From Jejubacter calystegiae (GTDB taxonomy: Bacteria; Pseudomonadota; Gammaproteobacteria; Enterobacterales; Enterobacteriaceae), in contig NZ_CP040428.1 in NCBI RefSeq assembly GCF_005671395.1, positions 558,001 to 622,000 on the forward strand: DNA of 64,000 bases. Reading direction: 5' to 3'. Positions 20,577 to 54,006 of this stretch are shown here, piece after piece. How positions within the stretch are numbered: the stretch's first letter is position 1; every line of letters starts with the position of its first letter. The notes beneath the pieces are model-generated. The model made no database searches, was not told where the DNA came from, and saw only the letters and a list, made by a program, of their open reading frames with translations. A program made the translations under genes and the position numbers.

Positions 20577-20611
20577 ATCCTAATGTCCGGTCACTAAACC
20601 GCACGTCAACC
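20577..20611 (-). promoter_or_regulatory. mgtA promoter with PhoP box
   Basis: Read on the minus strand: GGTTGA, five bases, GGTTTA (20611 down to 20595), then 12 bases and a -10 TAGGAT (20582-20577). The PhoP consensus is two (T/G)GTTTA repeats five bases apart, and in E. coli mgtA the second repeat is also 12 bases from the -10. One mismatch is in the first repeat. Confidence 0.8.
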
Positions 20612-20712
20612 AACACGGCCGCAGAATGACTTAAATCTGAACGGGCAATCGATTTATTAGAAAACACCCTCTTTGTTCCAGGCCGCGTCATTTCAGGAGC
20701 GGGAATTTTACT

Positions 20713-20726
20713 TTGATCTGAGTCAA
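20713..20726. promoter_or_regulatory. FNR site upstream of nrdDG
   Basis: TTGATCTGAGTCAA matches the FNR consensus (TTGAT-4-ATCAA) at nine of ten arm positions. nrdDG of E. coli is activated by FNR without oxygen, which suits an oxygen-sensitive reductase. Confidence 0.75.
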
Positions 20727-20752
20727 CAACAGCGCAAACATCTTTAGTGAAA

Positions 20753-20800
20753 ACACCATATATAGGCAATAAAATCACAACCAACCCCAACATGTTGTAG
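20753..20800. promoter_or_regulatory. Tandem NrdR boxes upstream of nrdD
   Basis: Two 16-base boxes, ACACCATATATAGGCA (20753-20768) and CCCCAACATGTTGTAG (20785-20800), both keep the core C4, A6, A8-T9, T11 and G13 of the NrdR consensus. Their centres are 32 bases apart, about three helical turns, the spacing seen in other nrd operons. NrdR is the ATP-cone repressor of ribonucleotide reductase genes. Confidence 0.8.
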
Positions 20801-20850
20801 TTGGTGCATATTGACTGATACCACACCCGGCCCGGAAACAGGCGCCGGGC

Positions 20851-20859
20851 TGTGGATAA
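20851..20859 (-). promoter_or_regulatory. DnaA box 1 upstream of nrdD
   Basis: TGTGGATAA on the + strand is the exact complement of the high-affinity DnaA box TTATCCACA. It lies about 105 bases before the nrdD ATG, downstream of the NrdR boxes, between two GC-rich half palindromes (GCCGGGC/CCGGGCGG). Confidence 0.65.
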
Positions 20860-20929
20860 TGCCGGGCGGGTATTGCGAAAAGCCTCTAATTAACAAGCCG
20901 CAAAGGATGTACTGCCCAACGGTCAACGC

Positions 20930-20938
20930 TGTGGATAA
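20930..20938 (-). promoter_or_regulatory. DnaA box 2 upstream of nrdD
   Basis: A second exact TGTGGATAA, in the same orientation and 79 bases from the first, ends 23 bases before the nrdD ATG. Paired DnaA boxes are known to control nrdAB in E. coli. Confidence 0.65.
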
Positions 20939-20961
20939 CCTGTTTTTAAAATGGAGAGATC

Positions 20962-23097
20962 ATGACACCGCATGTGATGAAACGGGATGGGTGCAAAGTA
21001 CCTTTCACTTCAGCGCGTATTCAAGAAGCGATTATACGCGCCGCCGTCGCCGCGGGGGTCGATGACGCAGACTATTGCGCCACCGTCGCGGAGACTGTTA
21101 GCAACCTGATGCAGGATCGCAGTCAGGTCGATATCAACGAGATTCAGACCGCGGTGGAAAACCAGCTGATGTCCGGTCCGTACAAACAGCTGGCCCGCGC
21201 CTATATCGAATACCGCCATGACCGCGATGTTGCCCGTGAAAAACGCGGCCAGCTCAATCAGGAGATCCGGGGGCTGGTCGAACAGACCAACGCCTCACTG
21301 CTGAACGAAAACGCCAATAAAGACAGTAAAGTGATCCCCACCCAGCGCGACCTGCTGGCGGGTATCGTTGCCAAACACTACGCCAAACAGCATCTGCTGC
21401 CGCGCGATGTGGTGCGCGCTCACGAGCGCGGAGAGATCCATTACCACGATCTCGACTACTCCCCCTTCTTCCCGATGTTCAACTGTATGCTGATCGATCT
21501 GAAAGGCATGCTGACCCGCGGTTTTAAGATGGGCAATGCGGAGATCGAACCACCGAAATCTATCTCTACCGCGACGGCGGTCACTGCCCAGATCATCGCC
21601 CAGGTAGCCAGTCATATTTATGGCGGTACCACCATTAACCGTATCGACGAAGTGCTGGCACCTTTCGTCACTGCCAGCTTTGACAAGCACCGTAAAACCG
21701 CCGACGAATGGCAGATTCCGGATGCCGAAGGTTATGCCCGCGCCCGCACCGAAAAAGAGTGCTACGACGCCTTCCAGTCGCTGGAATATGAGGTGAACAC
21801 CCTGCATACCGCCAACGGCCAGACGCCGTTCGTGACCTTCGGTTTTGGTCTGGGTACCAGTTGGGAATCGCGTCTGATCCAGACCTCTATCCTGCGTAAC
21901 CGCATCGCCGGCCTGGGCAAGAACCGCAAAACCGCGGTCTTCCCGAAGCTGGTGTTCGCCATCCGCGATGGCCTGAATCACCAGTTTGGCGATCCCAACT
22001 ACGACATTAAGCAGCTGGCCCTGGAGTGCGCCAGCAAGCGCATGTATCCGGATATCCTGAACTACGACCAGGTGGTGAAAGTCACTGGCTCCTTTAAGAC
22101 CCCGATGGGCTGCCGCAGCTTCCTGGGGGTGTATGAAGAAAACGGCGAACAGATTCACGATGGCCGTAACAACCTGGGCGTCATCAGCCTCAACCTGCCG
22201 CGTATCGCGCTGGAAGCTAAAGGTGATGAGGCGCGTTTCCATGCGCTGCTCGACGAACGCCTGTTGCTTGCGAAAAAAGCGCTGATGACCCGTATCGCAC
22301 GCCTGGAAGGGGTTAAGGCCCGGGTTGCGCCAATCCTCTATATGGAAGGTGCCTGCGGCGTACGCCTGAAAGCGGACGATGACGTCGCAGAGATCTTTAA
22401 AAACGGTCGCGCTTCTATCTCGCTGGGTTATATCGGCATCCACGAAACCATTAACGCGCTATACGGCAATCAGCACGTTTATGACAGCGAAACGCTGCGC
22501 GCTAAAGCGCTCGACGTTGTTCAGCGCCTGCGCCAGGCTGTAGACAGTTGGAAAGAGGAAACCGGGTACGGCTTCAGCCTCTACAGCACCCCGAGCGAAA
22601 ACCTGTGCGATCGCTTCTGTCGTCTGGATACCGCTGAATTCGGCGTAGTACCGGGCGTAACCGATAAGGGCTACTACACCAACAGCTTCCACCTGGACGT
22701 GGAGAAGAAGGTGAATCCTTACGATAAGCTGGACTTCGAAGCGCCCTACCCGCCCGTCGCCAGCGGCGGTTTCATCTGCTACGGCGAATATCCCAACCTG
22801 CAGCATAACCTGAAAGCGCTGGAAGATGTCTGGGATTACAGCTACCAGCACGTGCCCTATTACGGCACCAACACGCCGATCGATGAATGTTACGAATGCG
22901 GCTTCACCGGCGAGTTCGACTGCACCAGTAAAGGCTTTACCTGCCCGAAATGCGGTAACCATGACGCCAGCCGGGTTTCAGTTACCCGCAGGGTCTGCGG
23001 CTACCTGGGCAGCCCGGACGCGCGCCCGTTTAACGCCGGTAAACAGGAAGAGGTGAAACGCCGCGTTAAGCACCTGGGCAACGGCCAGTTGGGCTGA
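20962..23097 (+). CDS. nrdD: NrdD, anaerobic ribonucleoside-triphosphate reductase
   Basis: NrdD is the class III reductase that makes dNTPs without oxygen, using formate as reductant and a glycyl radical. The 711 residues match E. coli NrdD (712). An ATP-cone allosteric domain occupies about residues 3-92. The radical Gly is Gly680 in RRVCGYLGS. The zinc site is formed by two Cys pairs, CYECGF and CPKCG. The ATG is preceded by GGAGAG. nrdG starts two bases after the stop, as one operon. In E. coli mgtA and treRBC lie next to nrdDG; here treRBC is absent, leaving mgtA directly divergent. Confidence 0.98.
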   Translation: MTPHVMKRDGCKVPFTSARIQEAIIRAAVAAGVDDADYCATVAETVSNLMQDRSQVDINEIQTAVENQLMSGPYKQLARAYIEYRHDRDVAREKRGQLNQEIRGLVEQTNASLLNENANKDSKVIPTQRDLLAGIVAKHYAKQHLLPRDVVRAHERGEIHYHDLDYSPFFPMFNCMLIDLKGMLTRGFKMGNAEIEPPKSISTATAVTAQIIAQVASHIYGGTTINRIDEVLAPFVTASFDKHRKTADEWQIPDAEGYARARTEKECYDAFQSLEYEVNTLHTANGQTPFVTFGFGLGTSWESRLIQTSILRNRIAGLGKNRKTAVFPKLVFAIRDGLNHQFGDPNYDIKQLALECASKRMYPDILNYDQVVKVTGSFKTPMGCRSFLGVYEENGEQIHDGRNNLGVISLNLPRIALEAKGDEARFHALLDERLLLAKKALMTRIARLEGVKARVAPILYMEGACGVRLKADDDVAEIFKNGRASISLGYIGIHETINALYGNQHVYDSETLRAKALDVVQRLRQAVDSWKEETGYGFSLYSTPSENLCDRFCRLDTAEFGVVPGVTDKGYYTNSFHLDVEKKVNPYDKLDFEAPYPPVASGGFICYGEYPNLQHNLKALEDVWDYSYQHVPYYGTNTPIDECYECGFTGEFDCTSKGFTCPKCGNHDASRVSVTRRVCGYLGSPDARPFNAGKQEEVKRRVKHLGNGQLG

Positions 23098-23099
23098 GG

Positions 23100-23564
23100 A
23101 TGAACATACACCAGTATTACCCGGTCGATGTGGTTAACGGGCCGGGTACCCGCTGCACGCTGTTTGTGGCGGGTTGCGTTCATCAGTGCCCCGGTTGCTA
23201 CAACAAAAGCACCTGGCGTCTGAACTCCGGCGTTGCCTTTACGCCAGAGATGGCGCAAAAAATCATTGATGACCTCAATGACACCCGGGTACGGCGCCAG
23301 GGACTATCGCTCTCTGGCGGCGATCCGCTCCATCCGCAAAATGTGCCCGATATTCTGAAACTGGTGCAGCGGGTTCGTCGCGAATGCCCCGGCAAAGACA
23401 TCTGGGTCTGGACCGGCTACAAGCTGGATGAGCTGACCCCCCAGCAAATGGAGGTGGTGAGTCTGATTAACGTTCTGGTGGACGGTAAGTTCGTTCAGGA
23501 CCTGAGAGATCCGGCGCTCATCTGGCGCGGCAGCAGCAATCAGGTGATTCACCATCTGCGCTGA
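23100..23564 (+). CDS. nrdG: NrdG, radical-SAM activase of anaerobic RNR
   Basis: NrdG uses S-adenosylmethionine and a [4Fe-4S] cluster to generate the glycyl radical on NrdD. The 154 residues equal the E. coli protein. The radical-SAM cluster motif Cys26-x3-Cys30-x2-Cys33 (GCVHQCPGCYN) and the SAM-binding GGDPLHPQN are present. The ATG lies two bases after nrdD, so the two are translated from one message. Its stop is followed by the hairpin array at the right synteny break. Confidence 0.98.
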   Translation: MNIHQYYPVDVVNGPGTRCTLFVAGCVHQCPGCYNKSTWRLNSGVAFTPEMAQKIIDDLNDTRVRRQGLSLSGGDPLHPQNVPDILKLVQRVRRECPGKDIWVWTGYKLDELTPQQMEVVSLINVLVDGKFVQDLRDPALIWRGSSNQVIHHLR

Positions 23565-52831: not shown

Positions 52832-53034
52832 TCACAATAGGGCGCGAATATTACGCAAATAGTGAGGCTTTGACAAGCCCGATCGACGTTCTGTACAGAA
52901 AAAAAACGCAACTGCGACGGCGCCGTTTATCTGCCGCGTTTTTACGGTACAATCCGTACAATTGAGTATACGATTCCCCATTACGTTATCCCGTAGGGAT
53001 GTGTGGTCAACAGGACGATAGCCAGATTTTTGCG

Positions 53035-54006
53035 ATGAATTTAGAGAATATTAATCAGTTAACCGCGCAAGATATGGCGGGTGTCAACGCAGTCATCCTT
53101 GAGCAACTCAGCACTGATGTTCAGCTTATCAATCAGTTGGGATACTACATCGTTAGCGGCGGTGGAAAGCGCATTCGCCCCATGATCGCCGTGCTTTCTG
53201 CCCGGGCGCTCGACTATCAGGGGGATGCCCACATCACGCTCGCCGCGCTGATTGAGTTTATCCACACGGCCACCCTGCTGCACGACGATGTTGTGGACGA
53301 GTCGGATATGCGTCGCGGCAAGGCGACAGCCAACGCCGCCTTCGGAAACGCCGCCAGCGTGCTGGTGGGTGACTTTATCTATACCCGCGCCTTCCAGATG
53401 ATGACCCGTCTGGGCTCATTAAAGGTGCTGGAAGTGATGTCCGAAGCGGTCAACGTTATCGCTGAAGGCGAAGTACTGCAGTTGATGAACGTCAACGATC
53501 CGGACATCACGGAAGAAAGCTATATGCGGGTTATCTATAGCAAGACTGCCCGCCTGTTCGAGGCCGCCAGCCAGTGTGCGGGAATTCTGGCCGGTGCGAC
53601 GCCGGAGCAGGAACAGGCGTTGCAGGATTATGGCCGTTATCTGGGTACCGCTTTCCAGCTTATCGACGATCTGCTGGATTACAGCGCCGATGGCGAAACT
53701 CTGGGCAAGAATGTCGGCGACGATCTGAATGAAGGCAAGCCGACACTACCGCTACTGCACGCCATGCAGAACGGCACGCCGGAACAGGCCCGGATGATCC
53801 GTCAGGCTATTGAGGAAGGCAACGGCCGTCATTTATTGGAACCGGTTCTGGAAACAATGGCCGCCTGCGGATCGCTGGAATGGACCCGTCAGCGTGCGGA
53901 GGAAGAGGCCGATAAAGCCATCGCCGCCCTCGCCGCCCTGCCGGACACGCCGCAGCGTGAAGCCCTGGTGGCGCTGGCGCATATCGCCGTACAGCGTAAT
54001 CACTAA
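53035..54006 (+). CDS. ispB: IspB, octaprenyl diphosphate synthase
   Basis: IspB extends farnesyl diphosphate with isopentenyl units to the C40 chain used for ubiquinone and menaquinone side chains. The 323 residues equal E. coli IspB. The first Asp-rich motif is LLHDDVVDESDMRRG near 84-98 and the second is QLIDDLLDYSAD near 211-222; GGGKRIRP near 46-53 binds the diphosphate. The frame is open to 52999, but homology starts at the ATG at 53035. It is divergent from rplU. Confidence 0.97.
   Translation: MNLENINQLTAQDMAGVNAVILEQLSTDVQLINQLGYYIVSGGGKRIRPMIAVLSARALDYQGDAHITLAALIEFIHTATLLHDDVVDESDMRRGKATANAAFGNAASVLVGDFIYTRAFQMMTRLGSLKVLEVMSEAVNVIAEGEVLQLMNVNDPDITEESYMRVIYSKTARLFEAASQCAGILAGATPEQEQALQDYGRYLGTAFQLIDDLLDYSADGETLGKNVGDDLNEGKPTLPLLHAMQNGTPEQARMIRQAIEEGNGRHLLEPVLETMAACGSLEWTRQRAEEEADKAIAALAALPDTPQREALVALAHIAVQRNH

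Follow-up and report, generated by a model that had tools for sequence, protein, structure and literature searches.

The nrdDG locus and its leader

The window analysed here is a stretch of 64,000 nucleotides from the chromosome of Jejubacter calystegiae (contig NZ_CP040428.1, positions 558,001 to 622,000). It carries the genes of an anaerobic ribonucleotide reductase and its activating protein behind a leader with the following features, counted from the first letter of the window:

20713..20726, + strand: upstream FNR-like site TTGATCTGAGTCAA, in columns conserved at ca. -137 to -124 from the outer DnaA box across 98 leaders
20743..20756, + strand: degenerate second FNR-like site TTTAGTGAAAACAC, recognised by eye in place of E. 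coli TTGATGCAAAGCAC, ca. 31 bp from the first
20753..20768, + strand: NrdR box 1 ACACCATATATAGGCA, positioned by comparison by eye with the nrdDG oligonucleotides of E. coli in the available text of PMC12176259
20770..20775, + strand: -10 element TAAAAT, one site in a promoter scan against 0.4 expected and a conserved column block in the 98 leaders
20784..20799, + strand: NrdR box 2 ACCCCAACATGTTGTA, by eye, with the E. coli distance of 31 bp to box 1
20851..20859, - strand: outer DnaA box, exact TTATCCACA, with flanks poorly conserved in the 98 leaders
20930..20938, - strand: inner DnaA box, exact TTATCCACA, whose MG1655 counterpart is part of the double box of PMC11317965
20941..20949, - strand: weak partner box TTAAAAACA, 2 bp from the inner box (E. 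coli counterpart TTAAGAACA)
20962..23097, + strand: nrdD, class III anaerobic ribonucleoside-triphosphate reductase (NCBIfam NF006732, 1196.8 bits)
23100..23564, + strand: nrdG, activating protein (NCBIfam NF008335, 296 bits)

The site at 20713..20726 is called FNR-like by its resemblance to the FNR consensus, and the NrdR box pair of the window scores low in a pair scan (17 of 32). Judging from the -10 element, transcription of nrdD would start at about 20782, and the DnaA boxes would then lie in the transcribed leader, ca. 69 and ca. 148 bases downstream of this putative start. Both are in any case downstream of the -10 element itself (20770-20775) and not upstream of the promoter like a DnaA double box of the E. 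coli nrdA type. Dependence of nrdDG on FNR has been described in PMC2892513, where the portion available marks FNR boxes at nrdDG and DnaA boxes at nrdAB of Salmonella, and the available text of PMC12176259 lists H-NS and Fnr at nrdDG, not DnaA.

The first-pass annotation of this DNA had pointed to two exact DnaA boxes in the same orientation, 79 bases apart, between the NrdR boxes and the start of nrdD. Both copies of TGTGGATAA are indeed found at 20851-20859 and 20930-20938 (plus-strand letters; read as TTATCCACA from the minus strand), with 79 bases between their starts, and the pair falls between NrdR box 2 (20784-20799) and the nrdD ATG (20962). The two boxes agree with the high-affinity DnaA box consensus, exact TTATCCACA, as given in the available text of PMC11317965. 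The chance rate offered by the annotation, once per ca. 130 kb per strand orientation, needs correction because an exact nine-mer is expected once per 262 kb on each strand and once per 131 kb on both. Its view that two copies in 90 bases are notable is borne out, with 0.04 pairs within 79 bp per genome expected from random placement of 52 sites.

Across the window, three exact copies are present where dinucleotide shuffles average 0.33 (none of 100 gets to three), and the relaxed motif TTWTNCACA is not enriched (5 versus 2.7 expected, 13 of 100 shuffles as high), so that the signal resides in the exact form. The third exact copy, at 53258-53266 with TTATCCACA on the plus strand, lies inside the octaprenyl diphosphate synthase gene (52999-54006). 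The whole genome of 5.18 Mb contains 52 exact copies of TTATCCACA versus 9 of the reversed control, and three pairs of exact boxes within 200 bp where random placement predicts 0.10. Apart from the nrdD leader, only the oriC region and DARS2 have such a pair, which they share with the leader while differing from it in spacing and in the genes around them: 119 bp in the rppH-mutH interval and 180 bp in the mioC-mnmG interval (genes by NCBIfam). In MG1655, rppH and mutH flank DARS2 and mioC and mnmG flank oriC, with spacings equal to those of J. calystegiae. Sites of the DARS or datA type are clusters of DnaA boxes with an IHF site. The leader in the window is of a different kind, with no further match to TTWTNCACA, and the one IHF consensus tried is absent from the final 260 nt of all 120 leaders with same-orientation boxes.

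As 0.04 such pairs per genome is not negligible for a single genome, a chance pair without function deserves mention. Its conservation across two genus groups and the reported occupancy by DnaA in E. coli, both described below, stand against this reading, and we give it next to no weight.

Conservation of the box pair and its spacing

The search for NrdD covered 295 genomes of the order, 225 of which gave a match, and 217 genomes of the family, of which 136 did so at E 1e-100; to these were added the best 80 of 582 relatives from the genome collection. This yielded 272 nrdD leaders, which were not deduplicated and in which the named and family sets share species; three loci without a match to the NrdD N-terminus (L243, L252, and L276) and loci fetched for other purposes were left out. 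With no more than one mismatch tolerated over the two boxes together, 120 leaders carry the two boxes in the same orientation and 56 in a convergent form with the outer box reversed, while 6 have a single exact box and 90 have none. The family set (n = 141) contributes 59 same-orientation, 38 convergent, and 2 single-box leaders besides 42 without boxes, and the named set (n = 80) contributes 60 same-orientation and 18 convergent leaders besides 2 without, with the 59 and 60 counted at spacings of 74 to 81 and at most one mismatch in total per pair. E. coli MG1655 is of the same-orientation type, and leaders from other families (n = 50) have a single box in 4 cases and none in 46. Exact boxes are concentrated close to the gene, with 343 in positions -160 to -1 (43,520 nt) versus one in positions -400 to -161 (65,280 nt) of the 272 leaders.

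Absence of conservation in close relatives, which the annotation had named, jointly with absence of DnaA binding in vitro, as grounds for abandoning its proposal, is not what we see, as the pair is present across many genera. Together with ChIP-seq occupancy of the E. coli nrdD leader (PMC11317965, in the part available), this conservation gives good support to its suggestion of DnaA sites at the anaerobic reductase. Against the module proposed below stand the 42 of 141 family leaders that have neither pair nor single box.

For measurements of spacing, leaders repeated by their last 200 nt or lacking two exact boxes were removed, leaving 98 distinct same-orientation and 46 distinct convergent leaders. 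Among the 98, selected for having both boxes exact, the spacing is 77 in 59, 78 in 33, 79 in 5 (the value of the window), and 76 in a single one. The 68-nt spacers of the 59 leaders at spacing 77 have a mean identity of only 44% and a minimum of 19%, and the shorter interval from inner box to ATG varies from 29 to 47, so that the length of the spacer is kept and its sequence is not. As far as we searched, this maintenance of 76 to 79 bp in 98 distinct leaders despite a diverged spacer is new. Eight further same-orientation leaders have one exact box (L034, L044, L133, L159, L161, L163, L165, and L166, of which L159 and L161 are probably repeats of L034 and L044), and all eight have a one-mismatch box at a spacing of 76 to 79. 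The exact box nearest to the gene reads TGTGGATAA in 179 of 182 leaders with an exact box in their last 150 bases; the remaining three are probably L080, L197, and L202, in which the inner box reads TGTGGACAA.

The 46 convergent leaders have spacings of 55 (20 leaders), 56 (14), 57 (5), 49 (4), 43 (2), and 52 (1), and their outer box starts exactly at the end of NrdR box 2 in 35 cases. This convergent pair of the sister group around Yersinia, Serratia, Brenneria, and Dickeya, with 55 to 57 bp in 39 of 46 leaders and an outer box adjoining NrdR box 2 in 35, is likewise new as far as searched. Strict helical phasing was considered and rejected: the 77 to 79 and 55 to 57 classes differ by about two turns, but convergent spacings of 43, 49, and 52 also occur. 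A loop assisted by IHF was rejected as well, given that the one consensus used has no match in the final 260 nt of any of the 120 same-orientation leaders and matches in 5 of the 56 convergent ones, always more than 200 bases before the start.

A double DnaA box is defined in the available text of PMC11317965 by a second box 2 to 3 bp away, and the inner box of the window forms one with TTAAAAACA, 2 bp away in the same orientation. In the 98 same-orientation leaders, the partner position at 2 bp from the inner box has a mean of 4.96 of 9 matches to TTATCCACA versus 1.4 to 3.4 at seven other positions. Around the outer box, the four partner positions have means of 2.27 to 3.39 of 9, and 25 of the 98 leaders reach 5 to 7 matches at one of them. 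In the convergent group, a weak partner lies beside the outer box at 3 bp, with 7 or 8 matches in 34 of 46 leaders.

Could the motif instead be an incidental part of an element acting at the RNA level, such as a leader hairpin, a riboregulator, or an upstream ORF containing TGTGGATAA? In the convergent form the two boxes would make an RNA stem of 9 bp, 54 of the 98 leaders contain an ORF of 15 or more codons that starts with ATG, and 52 have a frame that stays open across both boxes. However, same-orientation copies are not complementary to each other, positions 20600-21000 have no Rfam match, the folding z-score is -0.42 with 64 of 200 shuffles folding as well, the spacer is poorly conserved, and the spacing falls in all three reading frames (59, 33, and 6 of 98). 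We regard an RNA element as highly improbable.

Two broader searches contribute little here. A blastn search over 5,426 E. coli genomes matched 5,375 of them at 60 to 80% identity, which is uninformative on single boxes, and a pattern search for the same-orientation pair across the order matched 48 of 394 genomes, a result left out of the counts because the matches are not tied to nrdD. Outside the family, four leaders (L263, L264, L265, and L282) each carry just one exact DnaA box, located at -39 to -41 and shortly after an NrdR-like box. They are all four examined of one family, perhaps Vibrionaceae, and three of them lie on contigs of 1.58 to 1.75 Mb that are perhaps a second chromosome.

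DnaA at the E. coli nrdD leader

The nrdD leader of MG1655 has exact boxes at -112 and -35, 77 apart, and DnaA ChIP-seq in E. coli K-12 detected 16 bound regions with 62-fold enrichment at nrdD and 14-fold at nrdA (PMC11317965). The available text of this study gives TTAAGAACAggTTATCCACA as the nrdD double box, mentions that sites had been predicted there before but binding not demonstrated, and does not describe the growth condition as anaerobic. The core of our finding is therefore already known: it is the same gene with the same two exact boxes, and DnaA is bound there in vivo. The table of PMC11317965 lists only the inner double box at E. coli nrdD, and its available text is silent on the exact box further out, on the distance between the two, and on how the pair is distributed over genera; these are also absent from the open-licence literature searched, a scope outside which lie subscription papers including the reviews with the predictions. 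The open-licence literature consulted gave neither expression data on nrdD box mutants nor in vitro DnaA binding at the nrdD leader.

We asked what the ChIP peak says about the outer box. Table 1 of PMC11317965 gives its coordinates as NC_000913.2, and we note that the oriC peaks fit NC_000913.3. On the latter reading, the two boxes enclose the nrdD peak (4462739), at a distance of 29 bp for the outer and 48 bp for the inner one. Across 12 loci (leaving out the dnaN peak and one of two DARS2 double boxes), the peaks at polA, datA, and purH lie 1, 2, and 12 bp from their own double boxes, those at rne, dnaA, mioC, rpoH, nrdA, and DARS1 are 18 to 200 bp off, and those of the multi-site loci DARS2 and oriC are further away. 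With other peaks 18 to 200 bp from their boxes, the peak position is soft evidence and hints, no more, at occupancy of both E. coli boxes.

For the control by DnaA-ATP and the replication cycle that the annotation had considered, the only hint from expression comes from PMC12371093, according to the available text of which NrdD protein is raised in a datA/DARS1/DARS2 triple deletion at intermediate and fast growth and in a DARS2 deletion at slow growth. In the latter strain at slow growth, the bound fraction of DnaA, the DNA content, and dnaA promoter activity were unaltered, so that the rise in NrdD may not act through DnaA. The authors of PMC12371093 conclude that the DnaA regulon did not respond to changes in DnaA-ATP or titration, and this conclusion, together with the DARS2 deletion, weakens the case for a repressing sign.

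A proposed DnaA module in the nrdDG leader

We propose that the two boxes make up a module for binding DnaA within the nrdDG 5' leader, downstream of where transcription would begin. DnaA would occupy the inner box jointly with its weak neighbour, as a double box, and would bind separately at the outer box, a high-affinity site at a distance of 79 bp. Occupancy of the pair would lower transcription of nrdDG, either as an obstacle to RNA polymerase or through a DnaA bridge between the boxes, and the promoter would read oxygen through FNR, dATP through NrdR, and the replication state through DnaA together. The parts of this proposal differ in strength. DnaA binding is near certain for the E. coli nrdD leader from the published ChIP-seq and very likely for that of J. 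calystegiae. A regulatory role of the pair is likely in view of the near-fixed spacing, the use of such sites at two operons of one pathway, and the placement beside NrdR sites. Occupancy of the outer box, a repressing sign, a roadblock or loop, and dependence on DnaA-ATP are what we infer beyond that; repression from the leader has the position of the boxes in its favour and, to a weak degree, the increase of NrdD in the deletion strains. The explanation as a whole, with leader-bound DnaA lowering nrdDG output beside FNR and NrdR, is in our view the most likely one, at about even odds.

Like nrdDG, E. coli nrdAB is a ribonucleotide reductase operon with DnaA boxes, and NrdR boxes likewise belong to its promoter region, but the exact box of nrdA, at -162, lies ahead of the NrdR box, while both nrdD boxes are downstream of the putative start. 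According to the part available of PMC8203912, DnaA can either activate or repress nrdAB, depending on how much of it is present and which nucleotide it carries, and by analogy, DnaA-ADP or low DnaA-ATP, as is said of nrdAB, might activate nrdDG. Against activation, the boxes lie downstream of the putative start and not upstream of the promoter as at E. coli nrdA, shortened leaders retain their promoter elements (see below), and NrdD goes up, not down, in the triple deletion that is said in the available text of PMC12371093 to lower the DnaA-ATP fraction. We find activation quite unlikely.

For the mechanics of repression, a parallel is a DnaA roadblock reportedly described at asnC/mioC, where a DnaA box stands in the path of transcription as proposed for the nrdD leader. 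An argument for the roadblock from box orientation was rejected, as the mioC box is oriented relative to transcription in the way opposite to both nrdD boxes. No exact box was found in the portion of guaB examined.

The annotation had also raised the possibility that the boxes titrate DnaA; the pair would then be mainly a sink that helps to time initiation, with little effect on nrdDG. The company of the oriC region and DARS2 in the short list of exact pairs fits this idea, as does a distance of ca. 0.6 Mb between nrdD and the oriC region of J. calystegiae, and the available text of PMC12371093 supports titration in E. coli and allows promoter boxes to serve both roles. Yet a sink needs neither a location in the nrdD leader nor a near-fixed spacing, similar sites recur before nrdA, in an operon of the same pathway, and two boxes are few among 52. 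Titration as the main function is the foremost alternative but appears doubtful to us, though it may coexist with regulation.

The coupling of dNTP supply to replication initiation is an old question that has mostly been studied at E. coli nrdAB, the operon on which the reviews consulted concentrate. The conserved pair suggests a link between anaerobic DNA-precursor synthesis and chromosome copying, and a conserved DnaA module at the anaerobic reductase would extend the link between dNTPs and replication to life without oxygen. Natural variants, i.e., the two geometries and species with a shortened leader, are ready test material.

Evolution of the two geometries

On a tree of 129 distinct NrdD proteins, built by a quick method without identical proteins and rows after L147, the three box states require 6 changes compared to 38.9 in shuffles. 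The convergent rows comprise Yersinia, Serratia, Brenneria, Dickeya, Symbiopectobacterium, and relatives on a branch with support 87 that includes two rows without boxes, and the same-orientation rows comprise Escherichia, Enterobacter, Klebsiella, Citrobacter, Kosakonia, and others on a branch with support 97 that includes four rows without the pair.

Four leaders (L099, L054, L135, and L148) are shortened by roughly 100 to 145 bp, with NrdR box 1 only 63 to 102 bases from the ATG versus 202 to 209 in 107 of the 120 same-orientation leaders. All four lack both exact boxes; L054 and L099 have no box at all, and L135 and L148 retain a one-mismatch inner box. FNR, NrdR, and -10 elements are still visible by eye in L054, L099, and L135, and the DnaA module is thus separable from the promoter. 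In four other leaders without boxes (L068 and L184, probably from the same genome, as well as L173 and L175), NrdR box 1 is 176 to 197 from the ATG.

A composite of NrdR and DnaA boxes at nrdA

In the nrdA leader of J. calystegiae (L300, G000:C1:4733953-4734042), an NrdR-like box runs into TTATCCACA-gag-TTAGTCACA, followed by TGTGAATAA; that is, the NrdR-like box adjoins a DnaA double box, and a one-mismatch reversed box lies 31 nt further. A pattern for this composite, ATRTAGTNNTTATCCACA, has 87 matches, spread over 86 of the 217 family genomes (reversed control: 1 match), with 65 of them at 65 to 93 bp before nrdA, 21 at 84 to 137 bp before nrdD, and one elsewhere, at G443:C14:16589-16606, that matches neither gene.

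Of the 198 genomes in which nrdA was matched, 128 could be typed for the region before nrdA (the composite pattern served for 65, fetched leaders for 60, and search loci for 3), and the box lies in the leader in 72, upstream in 49, and in neither place in 7. E. coli K-12 nrdA, with its exact box at -162 ahead of the NrdR box, is of the upstream type. Both genes were typed in 125 genomes: same-orientation nrdD comes with leader-type nrdA in 53, upstream-type in 2, and neither in 1, and convergent nrdD with upstream-type nrdA in 29, leader-type in 2, and neither in 2. Box-less nrdD is split between leader-type (15), upstream-type (15), and neither (4), and single-box nrdD is paired with upstream-type nrdA in 2 genomes. 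We read this association as a pattern and not as a test because the two groups are not independent trials.

The composite is present in the nrdA leader of J. calystegiae and of most typed genomes of its clade, where the E. coli nrdA layout is rare, and this is new as far as searched. Should this nrdA result hold up, the nrdAB promoter of E. coli would represent most of its close relatives poorly. We tentatively extend this to a composite NrdR-DnaA operator in transcribed reductase leaders of enterobacteria, with NrdR box 2 immediately followed by a high-affinity DnaA box and a second box at a preferred distance, placed on nrdA in one genus group and on nrdD in the sister group; dATP sensor and initiator would act as one switch on dNTP supply, and E. 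coli, the basis of the current model for nrdAB control by DnaA, would be the exception in its own clade. This generalisation seems plausible to us, if somewhat short of an even call.

A minor difference between the two groups concerns a GATC that lies at 20958-20961 of the window, immediately 5' of the nrdD ATG. Of the 120 same-orientation leaders, 102 have a GATC in their final 30 nt, versus 1 of the 56 convergent ones.
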